Below, piece after piece: positions 33,446 to 47,361 of a DNA stretch of 64,000 nucleotides. The stretch spans positions 1 to 64,000 of the forward strand of contig CACMNV010000003.1 in NCBI GenBank assembly GCA_902615025.1, in the 5' to 3' direction. Numbering within the stretch: the stretch's first letter is position 1; every line of letters starts with the position of its first letter. The DNA comes from an uncultured SAR116 cluster alpha proteobacterium. GTDB taxonomy: Bacteria; Pseudomonadota; Alphaproteobacteria; Puniceispirillales; Marisalimonadaceae. The notes under the pieces were generated by a model. That model ran no database searches. It worked only from the letters and a program-made list of their open reading frames with translations, and was not told where the DNA came from. Position numbers and translations under genes: made by a program.

Positions 33446-34009
33446 TTGATAAATTTTATTATGTCTAAATATTGTCCAACATGGATCATTGATTGCATTA
33501 TTGCAGAAGCCTCAATCGACTTTATTGAACTTGAAGTTGGGTTAGAATTTATATCTAAAAAATATACTGAGGGCATTAGAAATATTTATGATGATGTAGA
33601 AAATGTAAATATTTATGAAGGCGTAAAAAGGATGGTAGAATTTTGCGTCAGCGAAGAACTAAATGAAAATTCTAATATAATATTATCTCAATTTTCATAT
33701 TATAAGTTTTATTTTGTTAATAAAAATACTCAAAGAAATTTTTCGACTCTATTTAGCAATCCCTTTTTTTCTAAAGTACCTCGTTTCATTACTGAAGAGG
33801 ATACACTTAAAAATTTTTATTCATTTTTAAAAATTTACAAAAAATTTAAGTTTGTTCATTATAAAGAAGGTTGGTGTCTAAAAACACAAGATGAAAATGA
33901 AGATTTAAAAAATCTAGCATCTCAGCCTCTATCAGAAGATATTTTACAAACGTTAGTTGATGTAAAGAAAGATCAAGAATTTCAATCTGATTGGTTTAAA
34001 AAAAAATAG
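33446..34009 (+). CDS. Hypothetical protein (187 aa)
   Basis: Open reading frame only; no family recognised. Confidence 0.55.
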   Translation: MINFIMSKYCPTWIIDCIIAEASIDFIELEVGLEFISKKYTEGIRNIYDDVENVNIYEGVKRMVEFCVSEELNENSNIILSQFSYYKFYFVNKNTQRNFSTLFSNPFFSKVPRFITEEDTLKNFYSFLKIYKKFKFVHYKEGWCLKTQDENEDLKNLASQPLSEDILQTLVDVKKDQEFQSDWFKKK

Positions 34010-34059
34010 ATATATAAAAGATTAATTAATATAATTATGACTTAATTTACCCACATTAA

Positions 34060-34578
34060 TTACATCTTGTTATTTTCATAGTTAGTTTTATAGATATCCG
34101 TCAAACCCTTAATTAATTCAGAGTATTTTTTTTTAAAATTTTGTAAACTTGATAGTTCACATTTGTGAACAAATTGGGTTTTACCTTTATAATTTGAAAT
34201 TAAATCTAATGAAACTCTATTTAATTCCTTTTTATTACTTCTTTCTCTAAACTTTAAATCATCAATAAGCAAAATCTTTTTTTCTTCAAACAAATATTTT
34301 CCATTGTTAGTTACATCTATAAATATTTTGAAATCAGCTTCATCGAAGGTAATTTTGACTGCAGTTTCAATAAACTTTCCATTGTTTAAGAAATAAAATG
34401 AAAAATTTTTATGTAAATTTTCTTTTAGTTTTTTATTGTCAAAATTTTGTAAATTTTGCTTTTGATTTTCATTTTCCTTTTTGCATATCAAATATGTCTC
34501 ATTTTTAAAAGCAAAACTTTGATTAGAAAAAATTATAAAAATCAAACTTAATAAAAAGGGTTTAATAATTTTTTTCAT
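34060..34578 (-). CDS. Hypothetical secreted protein
   Basis: N-terminal signal peptide MKKIIKPFLLSLIFIIFSNQSFAF; no family recognised. Confidence 0.55.
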   Translation of the reverse strand: MKKIIKPFLLSLIFIIFSNQSFAFKNETYLICKKENENQKQNLQNFDNKKLKENLHKNFSFYFLNNGKFIETAVKITFDEADFKIFIDVTNNGKYLFEEKKILLIDDLKFRERSNKKELNRVSLDLISNYKGKTQFVHKCELSSLQNFKKKYSELIKGLTDIYKTNYENNKM

Positions 34579-34686: not shown

Positions 34687-34760
34687 TGGTCGGAGCTAAG
34701 ACTTGAACTCCCAAATTTCTTACTCCAAGTCAGGTACACTATCATTGCACGCTATGGAAC
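34687..34760 (-). pseudogene. Decayed tRNA-Pro(UGG)-like relic
   Basis: Reverse complement TTCCATAGCGTGCAATGATAGTGTACCTGACTTGGAGTAAGAAATTTGGGAGTTCAAGTCTTAGCTCCGACCA is colinear with the intact tRNA-Pro at 38456-38532; stems broken, CCA end retained. Confidence 0.75.
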
Positions 34761-34963: not shown

Positions 34964-36754
34964 ATGTCTCGACGCAAAACCATTCGATTTGGTGACTATA
35001 TCCAAGCAATGTCAATCGACAGTCAAAAAATTCCTTACCAAGAATTAATGCCAGAGCCATTATTTGATCGTCATGGCAATGAACATCCACAACCAGTTCC
35101 AAAAATGAAATTGGGTGGTGGTGATATTATTAAAATTTTACAACCCTATCTGTCTACACGATTTATAGATCAAGCACGTGCAGTTGTTCCACTGGCAATT
35201 TATCTAGCTCTTTTCCAATATTTGGTTCTACAAACACCTGTTATGGATGCAAGTATAATTGCGGGCGGATTATTTGCAGTTATGATTGGCTTAATGATGT
35301 TTATGGAAGGCTTAAAGCTCGGTCTGATGCCTTTTGGTGAGATAATCGGAAATACTTTGCCACGTAAACTACCATTGGCTGGCGTACTGTTTATCGCATT
35401 CTTATTAGGAATTGGAGTGACATTTGCCGAGCCAGCAATTGGCGCATTACAGGTAGCTGGATCAATTGTTGATCCAAAACAGGCACCTTATTTATTTACA
35501 CTACTAAATGATCGTTCTGGCGCAACTGTTTTACTTGTTGGACTTGGAGTTGGTTTGGCGGCAGTTCTTGGTACAGTGAGATTTTTAAGAGGTTGGAGTT
35601 TAAAACCGATGATTTTTTTAAGTGTTGTACCTACTTTGATTTTAAGTGTTATCGCTTTTATGGACCCTGAACTAACAAAAATTGTCGGTTTGGCATGGGA
35701 TTGTGGAGCAGTTACAACTGGACCAGTGACAGTGCCATTAGTCCTTGCACTAGGTATCGGTGTTGCAGCAGCAGCCGGTAAAGGTGCTGATTCTTCATTG
35801 TCTGGCTTTGGAATTGTAACATTGGCATCAGTGTTCCCAATTCTTGGCGTTTTAATACTAAGTTTTTACACAGCCTACACCGTGCCGCCAGAACTGATTA
35901 TTGAAAAAGCGGCTGAAATTAAATTGGCAGTTCAGACTGCAACCACACAGCCACAATGGTATGAAGTAACTCCTTGGACAGAAGTAATCTTAGGCGTAAG
36001 AGCCATTGTACCATTGGTGATTTTCTTGGCAGTGGTGCTATTAGTCATTTTACGTGAAAAGTTAAAAAATGCCTTCATTACTTACTATGGTATTATACTA
36101 GCTGTTGTTGGAATGTGTATCTTTAACGTTGGTTTAACCTACGGTTTAGCAAAACTGGGAGATCAATCTGGTGGATTGATTGCAGGTGCTTTTACATCAA
36201 TTGATGCAATCACGGCAAGTCCGCTATATAGCGTGGCTGTTGGTGTTGGGATTGCAGCTTTATTTGCTTGGGTTCTTGGTCTTTCAGCTACTCTTGCAGA
36301 ACCTGCTTTAAACGCTCTTGGAATGACTGTACAGAATTTAACTAATGGTGCATTCAAAAAATCTATGTTAATGATAGCAGTTGCATTTGGTGTGGGTACT
36401 GGAATAATGCTAGGTGTTTTGAAGCTTATCTATGGATTTCATATAATGTACATTTTAATACCTGGTTATACTCTTGGATTGATACTAACTTTTTTATCGA
36501 CTGAAGAATTTGTCAATGTTGGTTGGGACTCAGCTGGTGTAACTACAGGGCCTGTAACTGTTCCTTTAGTCCTGGCGATGGGTCTAGGATTTGGAAATGC
36601 GCTCGGTTCAACAGATGGATTTGGTATTTTGGCTGCAGCTTCAATTTGTCCTATTGTCGCCGTTTTAACGCTTGGTATTTATGTTCAATTTAAAATAAAA
36701 CGTGAGGAGCGCCGCGTTGCCCGTGAGCTTGCCCTAGAAGGAGAGACAAAATGA
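34964..36754 (+). CDS. DUF1538-like membrane protein with internal duplication (putative transporter)
   Basis: Two repeat halves sharing WDCGAVTTGPVTVPLVLALGIG / WDSAGVTTGPVTVPLVLAMGLG and FAEPAIGALQ / LAEPALNALG. Confidence 0.8.
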   Translation: MSRRKTIRFGDYIQAMSIDSQKIPYQELMPEPLFDRHGNEHPQPVPKMKLGGGDIIKILQPYLSTRFIDQARAVVPLAIYLALFQYLVLQTPVMDASIIAGGLFAVMIGLMMFMEGLKLGLMPFGEIIGNTLPRKLPLAGVLFIAFLLGIGVTFAEPAIGALQVAGSIVDPKQAPYLFTLLNDRSGATVLLVGLGVGLAAVLGTVRFLRGWSLKPMIFLSVVPTLILSVIAFMDPELTKIVGLAWDCGAVTTGPVTVPLVLALGIGVAAAAGKGADSSLSGFGIVTLASVFPILGVLILSFYTAYTVPPELIIEKAAEIKLAVQTATTQPQWYEVTPWTEVILGVRAIVPLVIFLAVVLLVILREKLKNAFITYYGIILAVVGMCIFNVGLTYGLAKLGDQSGGLIAGAFTSIDAITASPLYSVAVGVGIAALFAWVLGLSATLAEPALNALGMTVQNLTNGAFKKSMLMIAVAFGVGTGIMLGVLKLIYGFHIMYILIPGYTLGLILTFLSTEEFVNVGWDSAGVTTGPVTVPLVLAMGLGFGNALGSTDGFGILAAASICPIVAVLTLGIYVQFKIKREERRVARELALEGETK

Positions 36755-37110
36755 AACGTTCATTTACAACATTGACAGACGCAACATTAATCACAGCAGT
36801 TGTACAACAAGGTTATGGTGAGATCATTACTGATGCTTTACTAGAAGTAGGAATTCAAGGATCGACTGTGCATGGGGCAATGGGCGTAGGAATTCGTGAA
36901 AGATTAGGTGCTTTGGGTGTAGCTGTAGATGCCGAACGAGATGTCGTCAATGTGATGGTTTCAAGTGACGAAGTAGATAGAGTTTTTGAGCGAATGTTTT
37001 TAGCTGGAAAGTTAGATACGCCTGGTATGGGTTTTATGTACGCCACCCCACTAATGCAGGCTGCCACCTACGTTCCACCTTCCATTTTAACTAAATATGT
37101 AGGTTCATGA
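36751..37110 (+). CDS. PII-like (GlnB-fold) protein 1
   Basis: 119 aa; ITDALLEVGIQGSTVHGAMGVGIRERLG...VVNVMVSSDEVDRVFERMFLAGKLDTPGMGFMYATPL, PII-like layout; ATGA overlap with the upstream gene. Confidence 0.68.
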   Translation: MKRSFTTLTDATLITAVVQQGYGEIITDALLEVGIQGSTVHGAMGVGIRERLGALGVAVDAERDVVNVMVSSDEVDRVFERMFLAGKLDTPGMGFMYATPLMQAATYVPPSILTKYVGS

Positions 37111-37111
37111 G

Positions 37112-37498
37112 ATGGTTTTTCCTGAAGTAAAAAGTGATCCTCGGGTGCGCTATCTTGATTACACTTGGTTAATTTCGGGTATATTGTATGAAGGTGGTAC
37201 CGACAAGTTAATTCCTGAACTTATGAAACGTGGTATCAATGAGGTTTACTTTTACAACGTGGCTGGCACGATAATTGGGCAGAAAGCCATTGCAGGTGTT
37301 TCGGGTTCATTTGATGTGGAACAATTTCATGTTGTAGTGACTGCCGATCAAGCAGAGAATATATTTGATTTTATTTATCGCTTCTGTGACTTATCCGAGC
37401 CCAACAAAGGAATAATTTATATGAATAAACTAAATAGATCCACCAAACATTCACTCCAGGGTGACGAAAACACACAATTAGAAGAAATTACAGAATAA
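37112..37498 (+). CDS. PII-like (GlnB-fold) protein 2
   Basis: 128 aa; KLIPELMKRGINEVYFYNVAGTIIGQ...FHVVVTADQAENIFDFIYRFCDLSEPNKGIIYMNKL; tandem with PII-like protein 1. Confidence 0.6.
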   Translation: MVFPEVKSDPRVRYLDYTWLISGILYEGGTDKLIPELMKRGINEVYFYNVAGTIIGQKAIAGVSGSFDVEQFHVVVTADQAENIFDFIYRFCDLSEPNKGIIYMNKLNRSTKHSLQGDENTQLEEITE

Positions 37499-37509
37499 TA
37501 GGTGAAACC

Positions 37510-38262
37510 ATGGTAAAAAAGACTGATATAATATCTGAAAATAAAACTAATATTCGTAAGAACAGACGTAAGATTTTTGAGCTGGATGCAGAAGTATCTA
37601 CGACATACGCTGAACTCATGCTTTTACTAGCTGACATTGAAGAAAATCGTTCGTTGCTACAAAGAAATTTTACCTCTGCATTTATGGGCAACCGATCAAT
37701 AGCAATTGACAATGTAAATGATCTGTATGGTTGTCGAATGGCAATGCTTGAAGCGCTAGAACCATCATCTGACGTACAAACTAATTTCAAGGTACGGATG
37801 TTAAATCAAGTAAGGATTGAGCAACTTGAAAACCGCACTGATCTTAATGATACTTTACGGGATATTGCCACTAAAATGATCGAAGTAAATGAGATGTTGC
37901 AGTCAGTTAACAGTTCGATTACTGAAGCTAACGAAGCAGTAGTTGAACAAGGAGATGACATGATTTCTGAGAATGCTAAGTGGGCTGATGGATCGATCCG
38001 CAAGCAAATGACAAAAGCAACTCCAAATACAAATGCACAATCAGTCAAGTCTAATACCGAGCGATTACAAAAACTTTTAGATAGAGCTCATGTTGCAGAG
38101 AAAGAAGCTACTAATTTAGTGTATCGTGTTGAGGATGATACAAAGGGTATCTTGGAACTTGGTGATCAAATTGCTAAACGACGTGAACGCATACAAGCAG
38201 ACCGCGAACGTGTTGTGGCAAACCAGAGAAGAACTGCAGATCACATCATTAAACTAAAATAA
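37510..38262 (+). CDS. Coiled-coil protein of unknown function, cassette member
   Basis: 250 aa, charged heptad-rich, no TM segment or signal peptide; same operon as the DUF1538/PII-like genes. Confidence 0.7.
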   Translation: MVKKTDIISENKTNIRKNRRKIFELDAEVSTTYAELMLLLADIEENRSLLQRNFTSAFMGNRSIAIDNVNDLYGCRMAMLEALEPSSDVQTNFKVRMLNQVRIEQLENRTDLNDTLRDIATKMIEVNEMLQSVNSSITEANEAVVEQGDDMISENAKWADGSIRKQMTKATPNTNAQSVKSNTERLQKLLDRAHVAEKEATNLVYRVEDDTKGILELGDQIAKRRERIQADRERVVANQRRTADHIIKLK

Positions 38263-38455: not shown

Positions 38456-38532
<77 letters not shown>

Positions 38533-38577: not shown

Positions 38578-39063
38578 TCATTTTTTTTTAAATATAATTC
38601 TATCGCCTACGTCAAAACCGAGCTCTTTAAATACACCAACATTTAATTCTAGAACAAATTTAGCTTTTTTTTTACTTCTAATTAATTTTTCACTAAATGG
38701 TTTTGCATCAAAATAAACCTCTATAACTTCTAAGCTTGAGTTAATGAAAATTAAATCTAAAGGTATTACTGTATTCTTCATCCAAAAACTTCTGTAATCC
38801 TCATCAGACCATATGAATAACATACCTTCATGTTTCTTAAGTTTTTTTTTACACTGTAATCCTTTTTGTCTTTCATCGTTGTTTTTTGCTAATTCAACTA
38901 AAAATAATTCTTTATTTTTTGACAATTTATTTTCTACTAGTAATTTTTCTTTTTTTAGATGCTGGGCTTCACATGATATTGATTTTTGAGATATTATAGA
39001 GAAACTAAATAATAAAAATAAGAAATATTTATAGCTTTTTAATTTTCTGAATATAAAGAACAA
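38578..39063 (-). CDS. DUF192 family protein
   Basis: ERQKGLQCKKKLKKHEGMLFIWSDEDYRSFWMKNTVIPLDLIFINSSLEV. Confidence 0.88.
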   Translation of the reverse strand: MFFIFRKLKSYKYFLFLLFSFSIISQKSISCEAQHLKKEKLLVENKLSKNKELFLVELAKNNDERQKGLQCKKKLKKHEGMLFIWSDEDYRSFWMKNTVIPLDLIFINSSLEVIEVYFDAKPFSEKLIRSKKKAKFVLELNVGVFKELGFDVGDRIIFKKK

Positions 39064-40153
39064 TTCCTTTCACCTCATCTCTTATAGGCATATCTTCCAC
39101 ATCATCAATCCATTTATCTAACCACTTATTTGGTATTCCATTTTTAACTCTTGAATTTTTCCATTTTAATGATCTAAGTATTTCTTTGCATTCATCATTC
39201 AATTTAGATTGAAGAAGTTTTTCTTTCGAATTTAATACTAGCCAATTCCCAGCCCAAGCTTTTGCAGTTATATAAGGATTATAACCACCTCCACCTAAAA
39301 TAAGAGTTTTTGTGGATATATCTTTTAAAATAGAAATTGCATGCCAATATGTAGAGTTTGAAATTATCATTTTTGATTGTGGATCATCTTTTAAACTATC
39401 TGTTCCTGCTTGAATAATTGTTATGTCTGGGTTTAGTGCTTTACAATAAGGCATTATTAATTCATCAAGAATAAAAAGCATTTCATTATCATTAAAATTT
39501 TCTGGAACTGGAATATTCATTAAATTATTAATTTTTGATTCTTCTATTTTCCCAGTTCTTGGCCATTTGTTTTTTTCATGTATTGATATTAATTTTACGT
39601 TATCATTATTTAAGAAGTAGTCCTGAACTGCATCACAATGGTGAGCATCTAAATCAATATATAAAATTTTGTTAAAGCCAAATTCTTTAGCTTTTAAAAT
39701 TGCTAGTATGCAATCATTTAAAAAACAAAAGCCTGAAGCAAAATTCTTTCTTCCATGATGTGTGCCACCAGAAAAATTTAAAATTTTTTCTGCTTTATTA
39801 CTTGCTAAAAATTCTATTGCTCTCATAGAAGATTTTGCTGCTGAAGCTGGCCTTGAGTAAACTTCTTTAAATATTGGATTTACACCAACACCTAAATTAT
39901 ATTTTTTCTTCTCGTTTAATTCTAAATCTTGAAACTTTTCAGCTTTTTGCAAAATTTTTAAATAGTCAATATCGTGAAATATTGTTAACTCATCAATCCT
40001 AGCAGGTTCATTGAAAATTAATTCCTCATTAGAAACCCAATTCATAATTTTTAATAGATCTAAACTTGGCCAAACTCTATCAATATTTAAAGGGTGTCCT
40101 TCACCATATCGTGATCCTTTAAAAATTTTGCTAGAAAAAAGAAAATTTTTCAT
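39029..40153 (-). CDS. Histone deacetylase/AcuC-family deacetylase-like protein
   Basis: GGTHHGRKNFASGFCFLNDCILAIL; YIDLDAHHCDAVQ; LILGGGGYN. Confidence 0.9.
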   Translation of the reverse strand: MKNFLFSSKIFKGSRYGEGHPLNIDRVWPSLDLLKIMNWVSNEELIFNEPARIDELTIFHDIDYLKILQKAEKFQDLELNEKKKYNLGVGVNPIFKEVYSRPASAAKSSMRAIEFLASNKAEKILNFSGGTHHGRKNFASGFCFLNDCILAILKAKEFGFNKILYIDLDAHHCDAVQDYFLNNDNVKLISIHEKNKWPRTGKIEESKINNLMNIPVPENFNDNEMLFILDELIMPYCKALNPDITIIQAGTDSLKDDPQSKMIISNSTYWHAISILKDISTKTLILGGGGYNPYITAKAWAGNWLVLNSKEKLLQSKLNDECKEILRSLKWKNSRVKNGIPNKWLDKWIDDVEDMPIRDEVKGIVLYIQKIKKL

Positions 40154-42701: not shown

Positions 42702-43025
42702 ATGTTAGATATCTCTATTGAAATAATATCTATAATATCTTTTGTAGTTGGAGTTTTTTTTATATTAACTGGATCTATAGGGCTAATAAGATTACCAGAT
42801 GTTTTTTCTCGAATACATGCAGCTGGCATGATTGATACAGCTGGAGCGTCATTTGTAATATTAGGAATGATTTTACAAAGTGGCTTTTCATTAATTACTG
42901 CAAAACTAGTATTTATTGGAATATTTATATTTTTCACAAGTCCTATTACAGGTCATGTAACTGCAAACCTTGCTAGAAAAAAAGGTGTTAATCCTGTAGG
43001 AAAGACAAAAGGTAAAACTCTATGA
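42702..43025 (+). CDS. Mrp/Mnh-type antiporter subunit G
   Basis: GSIGLIRLPDVFSRIHAAGMIDTAGASFVILG. Confidence 0.9.
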   Translation: MLDISIEIISIISFVVGVFFILTGSIGLIRLPDVFSRIHAAGMIDTAGASFVILGMILQSGFSLITAKLVFIGIFIFFTSPITGHVTANLARKKGVNPVGKTKGKTL

Positions 43026-43591
43026 TAGGCGAAATAATTATAAATGCATTTCTCGTAACTCTAATGTTAACAATAGCAATATTTATTATTAATACACGGA
43101 AGGTGATATCAACTATATTATTAACTGGGACATATTCTTTAGTTGCAGCTCTTATGTTTGTAAGTCTAGATGCAGTAGATGTTGCATTTACAGAAGCATC
43201 TGTTGGCGCGGGAATTTCAACAATATTATTCTTAGCAGCTTTAAGCTATCTTCCAAAAGAAGAAAAAAAAGAGAAATTTAACGTTAAACATATTTATGCA
43301 ATCTGCACATGTACAATAGTTGCAGGATTATTAATTTGGGCAAGCTATGATTTGCCGCTTGTTGGTCAATTAGAAAACCCTGTTCATCAAAACCTCGCAC
43401 AGGATTTCATTGAGGGGTCACGAAACCATATAGGGATACCAAATGTAGTTACTTCTATTCTTGCAAGCTATAGGGGATATGACACTTTTGGGGAGACAGT
43501 TGTAATATATACTGCTGGTATTGCTGTATTAGTTTTATTATATGATGGAGTTTCAAAAACATCAAAAAATAATAAAGGTAAAAATAAGTAA
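43022..43591 (+). CDS. Free-standing DUF4040/MbhD-MbhE-like subunit (equivalent to the MrpA C-terminus)
   Basis: LDAVDVAFTEASVGAGISTILFLAAL; YDTFGETVVIYTAGIAVLVLL. Confidence 0.78.
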   Translation: MIGEIIINAFLVTLMLTIAIFIINTRKVISTILLTGTYSLVAALMFVSLDAVDVAFTEASVGAGISTILFLAALSYLPKEEKKEKFNVKHIYAICTCTIVAGLLIWASYDLPLVGQLENPVHQNLAQDFIEGSRNHIGIPNVVTSILASYRGYDTFGETVVIYTAGIAVLVLLYDGVSKTSKNNKGKNK

Positions 43592-44023
43592 ATGGATAAT
43601 ATAATTTTAAAGGTATGTACAAAAGTTTTATTTACTCCAATAATTTTGTTTGGTTTATACGTTCAATTTCATGGTGATTTTGGTCCAGGAGGAGGATTTC
43701 AAGCTGGGGTTATTGTTGCTGCAGCTTTTATATTGTATGCAATTGTTTTTAGTGTTGAAGATTGTAAATTGATTATGCCACCAAAATTAAATTTCTTTTT
43801 ACTTGCATTGGGGGCATTTCTTTACGGATTTGTTGGAATAGTTGGATTAATACTAGGTGATCCATATCTTAGTTATGATGTTTTAGGTTCCACCAAAGAA
43901 TCTGGTCAACATATAGGTATTTTACTTGTTGAATTTGGAGTTGGTCTAACAGTATGTAATGTAATGATTTCGTTATTTTACTCATTCGCAAATTTTAATT
44001 TTAGGAGGAAAAATAATGATTGA
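43592..44023 (+). CDS. Mrp/Mnh-type antiporter subunit B
   Basis: LYVQFHGDFGPGGGFQAGVIVAAAFILY. Confidence 0.9.
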   Translation: MDNIILKVCTKVLFTPIILFGLYVQFHGDFGPGGGFQAGVIVAAAFILYAIVFSVEDCKLIMPPKLNFFLLALGAFLYGFVGIVGLILGDPYLSYDVLGSTKESGQHIGILLVEFGVGLTVCNVMISLFYSFANFNFRRKNND

Positions 44024-44408
44024 TCAGATTTTTGGTGTTTGGAATTACTGGATAGTATTCATTTTAATGATGATAGGACTTTACATTGTTATATCCAAAA
44101 AAAGCCTTTTAAAAAAAATAGTTGGTCTAGCTATCTTCCAAACCTCCGTTTTTCTTTTGTATATAACATTCGGAAAAATTGCTGGAGGCACTGCTCCAAT
44201 CTTAACTGATAATGTAAACGAAATATATTCGAATCCTCTGCCACATGTACTAATTCTTACAGCAATTGTTGTTGGTGTTGCAACAACTGCTCTGGGTCTT
44301 GCATTGACGATTAGAATTAACAAAGCATATGGAACTATTAATGAAGACGAAATTTCTGCATCAGATTTAGTCGAATATCATAAAAAATATCTCGAAGATA
44401 AAAAATAA
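44016..44408 (+). CDS. Mrp/Mnh-type antiporter subunit C (NuoK-like)
   Basis: DNVNEIYSNPLPHVLILTAIVVGVATTALGLALTIRI. Confidence 0.9.
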   Translation: MIDQIFGVWNYWIVFILMMIGLYIVISKKSLLKKIVGLAIFQTSVFLLYITFGKIAGGTAPILTDNVNEIYSNPLPHVLILTAIVVGVATTALGLALTIRINKAYGTINEDEISASDLVEYHKKYLEDKK

Positions 44409-44410
44409 AA

Positions 44411-45910
44411 ATGATGCCATTTATAGTTAAAAATTTACCTATACTTATCGTCATCACACCTTTGATGTTCTCACTGATAGTTGCAGTTCTAAATAACTAT
44501 AGATTAGCCTGGACACTTTCTACTTTTGCATCCTTTCTAACAATGATATTCACAATTCTTCTTTGCTTTGAAGTTTCTTATAAAAGTAATATCTCATACT
44601 ATCTAGGTAATTGGCCACCACCACTCGGCATAGAATATGTAATTGATCGAATAAGCATAATTCCAATTATGATAGTTTCAGTAATTGGCTTGATAGCAAC
44701 ATTATTTGCACATAATTTTTTTACTTTAGAAATTGATGAAAAACTTGTTTCTAAAACTTATAGTTTATGGTTGCTAACAATTGCAGGTTTGATTGGCTTA
44801 ATCACAACAGCTGATGCTTTTAACCTTTTTGTTTTTCTAGAAATTTCGTCTTTATCTGCAGTGGCACTTGTTGCGTTAGGATCAAAAGTAGATAGGAAAG
44901 CTCTAGTTGCAGGCTATAATTATTTAATTTTAGGTGCAGTTGGTGCAACCTTTTATGTAATTGGAGTTGGACTATTATATGGTGTGACTGGGACATTAAA
45001 TATGGGTGATCTAGCTCAAAAAATTCCAGCTCTCGGACTAAATAAATCAGTTATAGTTGCATTCACATTTATGATGTTAGGTATAATGGTTAAAGCAGCG
45101 GTTTTTCCTTTACATATTTGGTTGCCAAATGCTTATGCTTATGCTCCATCACCAGTTTCTGTTTTGTTAGCTGCAACAGCGACAAAAGTTTCTATATATA
45201 TAATAGTTAGAATTTCATACACCATTTTTGGATCTTCATATGAAATTTATTCATTTGAAAGTCTTAGATATATATTGTTATATCTTGCAATTTTAGCGAT
45301 GTTTGCAGGAACCATTATGGCAATATTCGAAAAAGATGTAAAAAAATTATTGGCGCATTCTTCAGTTGCACAAATTGGATATATCGTTCTTGGCATTTCT
45401 TTGGCAACAAGTCCAGGAATTGCTTCAAGTTTTATTCATCTAATAAATCACGCTCTTATTAAAGCTGGCTTATTTATGTCAATAGCAGCTATGGGATACT
45501 ATACTTCAAAAAGAATAGATGTGAAAACGATAGCTGGGCTGGGAAGGCAATTGCCAATTACTTTTTTTTCTTTTATAATTTGTGCTCTTAGTTTAGCAGG
45601 ACTACCATTAACGGTAGGATTTATTTCAAAACTTTATCTAATTAAAGCAGCTTACATAAGCGAAGGAATATGGCTTCCTTTTTTAATCTTAGTTAGTTCA
45701 GCTTTGTCATTAATCTATATCTGGAAGTTAATAGAAGGTCTCTGGTATAATGAAAAGAGTTTAAAAATTGAAAAAATTAAAGAATTGCCTGAAATTTATT
45801 TACCACTTTTAGTTATTACTTTTTTAAATGTTTATTTTGGTATAGACGCAGGTTTAATAATTGATAATAGCTTTATTGCCTCTGATGCATTAATGAGTGG
45901 AATAAAATAA
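44411..45910 (+). CDS. Mrp-type NuoM/N-like antiporter subunit D (first copy)
   Basis: FNLFVFLEISSLSAVALVALG; VFPLHIWLPNAYAYAPSPVSVLLAATATKVSIYI; KKLLAHSSVAQIGYIVLG. Confidence 0.9.
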   Translation: MMPFIVKNLPILIVITPLMFSLIVAVLNNYRLAWTLSTFASFLTMIFTILLCFEVSYKSNISYYLGNWPPPLGIEYVIDRISIIPIMIVSVIGLIATLFAHNFFTLEIDEKLVSKTYSLWLLTIAGLIGLITTADAFNLFVFLEISSLSAVALVALGSKVDRKALVAGYNYLILGAVGATFYVIGVGLLYGVTGTLNMGDLAQKIPALGLNKSVIVAFTFMMLGIMVKAAVFPLHIWLPNAYAYAPSPVSVLLAATATKVSIYIIVRISYTIFGSSYEIYSFESLRYILLYLAILAMFAGTIMAIFEKDVKKLLAHSSVAQIGYIVLGISLATSPGIASSFIHLINHALIKAGLFMSIAAMGYYTSKRIDVKTIAGLGRQLPITFFSFIICALSLAGLPLTVGFISKLYLIKAAYISEGIWLPFLILVSSALSLIYIWKLIEGLWYNEKSLKIEKIKELPEIYLPLLVITFLNVYFGIDAGLIIDNSFIASDALMSGIK

Positions 45911-47361
45911 TGACCAATGAATTTTATATATATTTATCAATTTTAACGCCCCTTATTTCCTTTTTTATAACTCCTTTATTATCGTCAAATCCGAATTTAA
46001 GAGATAGTTTGGGACCAATTGGTGGAATTATTACGTTTTACAGTTCTCTCAATGTCGCATCACTTTTCTTAGATGGAGAAATTCTTAGTTTCACATTTTT
46101 TCAAATAAGCGAAACATTATCTATTTCATTCAAGATAACAGGTTTAGGTGTAATATTTGGGCTAGTAGCATCAGGCTTATGGATATTAGCTTCAATTTAC
46201 ACAATTGGTTATATGAGAGGTAATAAAGAAAAAAATCAAACAAGATTTTTTACATTTTATTCAATAGCTATCTTTGCAGCAATTTGTATTGCCTATTCAG
46301 GTAATCTTTTAACATTATTTATCTTTTATGAAGTTTTAACATTTTCCACTTATCCTCTAGTAGCTCATAAACAAAATGAAGAGGCTAAAAAAGCTGGAAG
46401 ACTTTACATGGGTATATTGGTAGGAACCTCAATAGTTTTTTTACTTCCAGCAATAATTATTGTTTGGGTGTTGACAGGTAGTTTAGATTTTTCAACAAAT
46501 GGTATCTTAAAAGGTAATATCTCAAATGAATACGTCCCATTTTTATTGGCATTATTTGCGTTTGGAATTGGTAAAGCCGCATTAATGCCATTTCATAAAT
46601 GGCTTCCAGCCGCTATGGTAGCACCAACTCCTGTGTCAGCACTATTACACGCTGTTGCTGTTGTTAAAGCTGGTGTGTTTTCCATGTTAGTTGTAATTAC
46701 ATATGTCTTTGGAATAGATTTTTTAAGTGAAACCAATGGTGCAGTTTGGTTAATATGGATTTCAAGTATTACCTTATTGCTGTCAAGTTGTATTGCAATT
46801 ACTAAAGATGATTTAAAGGCTCGATTAGCTTATTCTACTATAAGTCAGCTGTCATATATAGTACTTGGAGGTGCCATTGCAACAAATATAGCAGTACAAG
46901 GTGCAGCAATTCATATTGTTATGCATGCTGTGGGTAAAATTACATTATTTTTTGCAGCAGGTGCAATATATGTTGCAACACATTTGTCAAAAATCTCAGA
47001 TTTAAATGGAATGGGTAAATCAATGCCTTTAACATTTATAGCTTTTTTCATCGGCTCTTTGTCAATTATTGGCGTACCACCAATGGGTGGATCGTGGAGC
47101 AAATTTTACTTAATGTTAGGTTCTGTTGAAAAAGACTATTTATTAGTTATTTACATTCTCGCAATTTCAACTCTACTGAATGTTTATTATTTATTAGAAA
47201 TACCTGCTAAGGCCTTTTTTCAACAAAAAAGAACCAACATACAAGTAACGAAGCATCCTTTGACAGTTTATCCAACTTTTTTTGCTGCTTTACTTACGAT
47301 TATCTTATTTATTTACATAGAACCGCTAAAGGATATAACTAACTTAATATTTGGAAATTGA
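45910..47361 (+). CDS. Mrp-type NuoM/N-like antiporter subunit (second copy)
   Basis: LMPFHKWLPAAMVAPTPVSALLHAVAVVKAGVFSML; KARLAYSTISQLSYIVLG. Confidence 0.9.
   Translation: MTNEFYIYLSILTPLISFFITPLLSSNPNLRDSLGPIGGIITFYSSLNVASLFLDGEILSFTFFQISETLSISFKITGLGVIFGLVASGLWILASIYTIGYMRGNKEKNQTRFFTFYSIAIFAAICIAYSGNLLTLFIFYEVLTFSTYPLVAHKQNEEAKKAGRLYMGILVGTSIVFLLPAIIIVWVLTGSLDFSTNGILKGNISNEYVPFLLALFAFGIGKAALMPFHKWLPAAMVAPTPVSALLHAVAVVKAGVFSMLVVITYVFGIDFLSETNGAVWLIWISSITLLLSSCIAITKDDLKARLAYSTISQLSYIVLGGAIATNIAVQGAAIHIVMHAVGKITLFFAAGAIYVATHLSKISDLNGMGKSMPLTFIAFFIGSLSIIGVPPMGGSWSKFYLMLGSVEKDYLLVIYILAISTLLNVYYLLEIPAKAFFQQKRTNIQVTKHPLTVYPTFFAALLTIILFIYIEPLKDITNLIFGN

Follow-up and report, generated by a model that had tools for sequence, protein, structure and literature searches.

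A fused DUF1538 transporter gene followed by two PII-like genes in a tRNA-Pro islet of a SAR116-cluster bacterium: a candidate PII-gated cation/proton antiporter

The window analyzed here, a stretch of 64,000 nucleotides, lies on contig C3 of a genome of 1.5 Mb (74% complete) whose nearest named relatives are SAR116-cluster alphaproteobacteria. Four genes, designated A to D, are the only genes located between two tRNA borders (Table 1). The original prediction, made from the sequence alone, had proposed that they form a candidate undescribed system comprising a duplicated membrane protein, two PII-like proteins, and a coiled-coil protein. The tight packing that it reported is exact, with an ATGA overlap between A and B (positions 36751-36754), a 1-nt gap between B and C (position 37111), and an 11-nt gap upstream from D. 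Scanning the operon for promoters and terminators returned signals at or below the shuffled expectation.

Table 1. Features of the islet, in window coordinates.
Feature	Position	Strand	Length	Evidence
Degenerate tRNA-Pro copy, upstream border of islet	34687..34754	-		Local alignment to intact tRNA-Pro
A, membrane transporter, two fused DUF1538 halves, UmpA-like then UmpB-like	34964..36754	+	596 aa	Pfam, NCBIfam
B, PII-like protein, T-loop and ligand site non-canonical	36751..37110	+	119 aa	PF00543, PDB profile
C, second PII-like protein, more divergent than B	37112..37498	+	128 aa	AF2, Foldseek, PDB profile
D, helical, probably coiled-coil accessory protein, no known family	37510..38262	+	250 aa	45/75 intact loci
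Intact tRNA-Pro(TGG), downstream border of islet	38456..38532	-		ARAGORN, Rfam RF00005, 67.6 bits

In the product of gene A, Pfam detected DUF1538 (PF07556) in two stretches (E = 5e-100). The halves of the protein align with each other over 262 columns (31% identity, E = 3e-28), and both copies of the repeated motif reported previously, WDCGAVTTGPVTVPLVLALG and WDSAGVTTGPVTVPLVLAMG, were found. The prediction of an internal duplication, and of a transporter made of two fused halves, therefore holds, with DUF1538 in each half. Comparison with NCBIfam matched the N-terminal half to UmpA (218 bits) and the C-terminal half to UmpB (164 bits), in the order of UmpA-UmpB, both scores lying under the equivalog cut-offs (490 and 500 bits, respectively). 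Judged by its sequence, A is a homologue of UmpA/UmpB and not UmpAB itself. In the AlphaFold (AF2) model of A (pLDDT 78, pTM 0.77), the AEP and TTGP motifs of each half sit at helix breaks. Both motifs are invariant among fused DUF1538 proteins, and AEP is common to most of the other DUF1538 proteins inspected. Ion-coupled carriers typically have broken helices with acidic residues buried in them. A Foldseek search of the PDB with the model returned nothing under E = 0.001. MATE, pyrophosphatase, and ClC were rejected as the fold of A; these best matches were generic membrane bundles (TM about 0.15), and no fold was assigned for this reason.

The original prediction had described the substrate as unknown. 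This was too strong, since DUF1538 relatives have a published activity: UmpA and UmpB of Halomonas zhaodongensis, described in 2017, pair as a heterodimer that works as a Na+(Li+,K+)/H+ antiporter and depends on pH (PMC5484666). No other characterized DUF1538 proteins were found beside this pair. UmpAB was cloned without a PII gene and was nevertheless active in E. coli KNabc (PMC5484666), so that a PII protein is plausibly a regulator rather than a transport subunit. By analogy, exchange of a monovalent cation for a proton is the best guess for A, rather than a fact, since A falls below both equivalog cut-offs.

B and C encode two non-identical proteins of the PII superfamily, as predicted. 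For B, the PII fold was assigned from a Pfam match to PF00543 (P-II; 27.7 bits for a gathering cut-off of 25) and from the match of its family profile to PII proteins in the PDB (1e-7). C alone matched no Pfam family. The families of B and C merged under profile iteration, seven of the 39 members of the C family matched PF00543 at E<=1 (best, 8.6e-6), and the C family profile matched a P-II protein in the PDB (chain 9p1x_H, E = 0.0017). The AF2 model of C (pLDDT 74) displays the order beta-alpha-beta-beta-alpha-beta, and the Foldseek comparison that had been suggested for this protein returned PII/GlnK structures for all of the top 50 matches, with a probability of 1.00. C is accordingly modeled with a PII fold, outside which it is poorly conserved.

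B and C were aligned with two canonical PII proteins that the genome encodes elsewhere. GFGRQKG, Tyr51 of the T-loop, the Lys90 B-loop signature, Arg101, and Arg103 were missing from B, from C, and from the single-PII group, all of which are shorter than canonical PII by approximately 5 residues after the T-loop. The absence of the canonical GFGRQKG and uridylylated-tyrosine region, noted in the original prediction, was thus borne out by alignment. B has a strict signature of its own (G45, G47, R49, G53, D89-x-P-G-x-G94, A105-T106, and P109), and its conserved loop residues fall where PII proteins bind ligands. These residues point to a ligand site in B that is likely to be conserved yet different. 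On the same alignment, uridylylation and classical 2-oxoglutarate sensing by B or C are not likely. B and C were rejected as the nitrogen sensors of the cell because the canonical residues are absent and two canonical PII genes are present elsewhere in the genome; the earlier opinion that classical nitrogen control is improbable stands on both counts. A nucleotide ligand is a guess, since the canonical nucleotide-binding residues are absent. No relatives of B were found among viral contigs.

DUF1538 is patchily distributed among relatives (12 of 61 genomes). Scanning species genomes with the profile of A retained 80 loci, to which the locus of one relative (L024) was added, giving 81. The loci belong to alpha-, beta-, and gammaproteobacteria, Bdellovibrionota, Nitrospinota, Nitrospirota, Verrucomicrobiota, and SAR324. 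Seventy-five loci, from Pseudomonadota, Bdellovibrionota, and Nitrospinota, were considered intact, i.e. followed by at least 1 kb of downstream sequence. Two PII genes were located directly behind A, on the same strand, at each of these loci (75/75), with median gaps of -4 nt (A-B) and 1 nt (B-C). This conservation across three phyla rules out chance neighbors. The six remaining loci end at contig ends, and those of Verrucomicrobiota, Nitrospirota, and SAR324 keep the first PII gene. The neighborhood survey that had been proposed for the four genes therefore upheld the association of A with two PII genes at every intact locus but that of D at 45 loci only. One locus, L082, is from a metagenome bin labeled Bordetella parapertussis; its A protein nests among other Burkholderiales bins, and the species label is doubtful.

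Searches with D against Pfam, NCBIfam, the PDB, and phages returned nothing convincing. The predicted coiled coil received partial support: the D family is poor in proline (0.6%; asparagine, 8.6%) and displays a family-averaged helical periodicity of 3.62 (2/1000 shuffles), but coiled-coil periodicity was not significant in the single D sequence. D is next in line at 45 of the 75 intact loci and missing from 30. It was gained once on the A tree (clade support 100/99) and is present at all 45 intact loci of its clade, the three D-less rows in this clade being contig-truncated. Relatives of D elsewhere are rare, and none adjoins DUF1538. Those detected (L171-L173 and L175:5986-6699) stand alone in three small alphaproteobacterial genomes or, in one case, are flanked by a pair of IS6 transposases on a plasmid of Octadecabacter. 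The single gain of D and the rarity of its relatives, which occur away from DUF1538, place it outside the core: a single lineage added D to an A-B-C set that already worked.

The pairing of DUF1538 with PII extends beyond this subtype. DUF1538 was present in 127 of 399 sampled genomes of the phylum Pseudomonadota. A PII-like gene was found beside the DUF1538 genes at 19 of 20 inspected loci (the exception being L159), usually as one PII gene after a split umpA-umpB pair and sometimes after a fused gene. According to the coordinates of Pfam hits, P-II was adjacent to DUF1538 in 35 of 37 genomes (exceptions, G305 and a contig fragment in G216); both adjacency counts are samples rather than a phylogenetically balanced survey. 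The pairing was also present in annotated plasmid records of Methylocystis, Chelativorans, Paraclostridium, and Peptoclostridium. The clostridial 'P-II' proteins (L177:3860-4525 and L179:3599-4264) comprise 222 aa with two P-II stretches, i.e. a PII-PII fusion, encoded behind a fused DUF1538 gene. This fusion hints that a pair of PII domains may function as a single unit. At another locus, L150 (G198:C11:1021000-1029000), two DUF1538 systems lie back to back, a fused gene and its PII gene being followed by a PII gene and a split pair. Since the transporter-PII pairing is general, the operon studied here represents a sub-variant of it. The candidate system of the original prediction is therefore confirmed as a set of real, co-conserved genes, but not as a unique one.

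The islet itself, its atypical GC content, and its lateral transfer were not part of the original prediction. The degenerate tRNA-Pro copy was recognized by neither ARAGORN nor Rfam; its alignment to the intact gene scored 38 for a shuffled maximum of 22 (0/300). A degenerate upstream copy was likewise present in L025, L032, and L037 and was undetected in the neighboring genus. In relatives, the same tRNA-Pro gene adjoins the operon or an empty site. The site is empty in a genome of the same genus (G008), in which the flanking proteins are 79-99% identical and tRNA-Pro follows the upstream ABC-transporter gene at a distance of about 158 nt. The GC content is 39.6% in the operon versus 29.0% in the rest of the window. 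In two loci of the neighboring genus (L211 and L217), at the same tRNA-Pro, the proteins of the operon are 87-97% identical and the flanking proteins 44-75%. In the A tree, SAR116 operons of the type found in the window group with Kordiimonadaceae and gammaproteobacteria, the other SAR116 operons being of a distant, D-less type. This grouping across taxa indicates that the cassette has been laterally transferred between marine bacteria.

Three neighboring regions were also compared. Two very AT-rich ORFs upstream from the islet (33446-34578) are present in L215 and absent at the same place in G007 and G008; they represent a further small insertion at this site. A histone-deacetylase-like gene adjoining tRNA-Pro (39029-40153) is conserved at the site and serves as a synteny marker. 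Genes resembling Mrp-type Na+/H+ antiporter subunits, located 5 kb downstream (43022-47000), belong to the chromosomal background, as their synteny is kept in relatives whether or not the islet is present.

For the operon as a whole, we favor, at about even odds, the proposal, drawn by analogy, that it encodes a monovalent-cation/proton antiporter gated by a PII hetero-oligomer of B and C that responds to a non-classical ligand. A would be a single-chain version of the UmpA/UmpB heterodimer, acting in the inner membrane to exchange H+ against Na+ or K+, a substrate that we infer from its homologues. B and C would form a PII-type hetero-oligomer bound to the cytosolic side of A. This arrangement is modeled on AmtB and SbtA, which are gated at the membrane by PII-family proteins (PMC10710835), and on NifI1 and NifI2, a tandem PII pair of which both members are required (PMC9765008). 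Whether the B:C assembly opens or locks A may depend on a small molecule, probably an adenine nucleotide or some other signal of energy or ion status, rather than on classical 2-oxoglutarate sensing or uridylylation. D would act as a helical accessory, added once in one lineage, and is probably a cytosolic linker or an additional partner for B and C. The cassette moves between marine bacteria and resides here as an islet at tRNA-Pro. Several observations count against this model: PII-controlled transporters of the GlnK-AmtB and SbtB-SbtA kind function as trimers (PMC10710835), whereas UmpAB is reported to be a heterodimer; A lies below the equivalog cut-offs; the canonical nucleotide-binding residues are missing; and C is poorly conserved outside its fold.

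It is less likely that A is gated by PII but moves another substrate, such as an organic ion, bicarbonate, or a solute related to ammonium. In that case, the antiport of UmpAB would be a secondary activity or one confined to its own branch. The distance between A and UmpA/UmpB is consistent with such a divergence, as is the lack of resemblance between A and any solved structure, and the known targets of PII carry ammonium, bicarbonate, nitrate, or urea (PMC10710835). Against it stand the sole functional data for DUF1538, which are those on cation/proton antiport (PMC5484666), and the sharing of the AEP motif by most of the other DUF1538 proteins inspected, AEP and TTGP both being invariant in fused ones. 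The relationship between B/C and A could also differ from gating. PII proteins commonly have several targets (PMC10710835), and D is a candidate second target of B and C, which might read the activity of A as a transceptor or leave the membrane for other partners. This we regard as improbable, since the transporter is the only gene constant at all loci and D is absent from many of them.

The loss of canonical ATP and 2-oxoglutarate residues from B and C would fit constitutive structural or assembly subunits of A that sense no ligand. The activity of UmpAB in E. coli without PII (PMC5484666) and the strict conservation of the loop residues of B, where PII proteins bind ligands, make this role very improbable. 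Mobility could in turn explain adjacency without any functional link, the genes merely sharing their travel on the islet, and the tRNA-Pro relic, the empty site, the lateral transfer, the 40% GC in a 29% GC region, and the higher identity of the operon than of its flanks would all be expected in that case. Such an explanation is hardly credible in view of the A-B-C order maintained in three phyla with near-zero gaps and of the presence of PII genes next to unfused umpA-umpB pairs.

Beyond the operon, we tentatively propose, with somewhat less than even confidence, that DUF1538 and PII genes specify a widespread, undescribed class of PII-gated cation/proton antiporters, under direct allosteric ion or pH control by a non-classical PII ligand, and that the subtype of the window has a two-PII hetero-oligomeric gate and a helical adaptor, D. 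The families of A and B are already known, being annotated publicly as 'DUF1538 domain-containing protein' and 'P-II family nitrogen regulator'. Provisionally, the PII link to this transporter class, the twin-PII subtype, and the accessory protein D are new: no description of the DUF1538-PII link was found in the open-access papers searched. Textbooks present PII proteins as sensors of nitrogen and carbon. If the proposal is correct, their conserved tie to a cation/proton antiporter family across many bacteria would widen their role to the homeostasis of ions, pH, or energy. It would also make sense of many genes that carry no annotation other than 'DUF1538' and 'P-II family nitrogen regulator', the latter label being probably misleading here. 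The two-PII subtype with D would also provide a natural hetero-PII for study.

Among known systems, the islet resembles the tRNA-bordered islands of marine bacteria, tycheposons among them, in which the cargo adjoins a tRNA gene (PMC10872708); here, a tRNA copy is also present at the other border. Assignment as a tycheposon was rejected since the tRNA borders were found but no tyrosine recombinase was present among the ORFs of the islet (3.8 kb). The transporter is closest to UmpA/UmpB of Halomonas zhaodongensis, which is also a DUF1538 pair in the same order, encoded by overlapping or fused genes (PMC5484666). In contrast, A is one fused chain scoring below the equivalog cut-offs, and it is accompanied by two PII genes and D; the main text of the UmpAB paper does not mention P-II. 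The conserved linkage of a PII-family gene to a membrane transporter gene, as in GlnK-AmtB and SbtB-SbtA, is present here. The transporter family is unrelated to that of GlnK-AmtB, and the PII-like proteins lack the canonical GlnK T-loop and uridylylation site. SbtB-SbtA likewise combines a non-canonical PII-like protein with a secondary transporter, but the transporter differs, SbtB is encoded by one PII gene rather than two, and B and C match SbtB structures weakly (E about 0.5 with the B profile). NifI1 and NifI2 are, like B and C, a non-identical tandem PII pair in one operon. The target of the NifI proteins is nitrogenase, whereas the PII pair described here is linked to DUF1538 at all intact loci.
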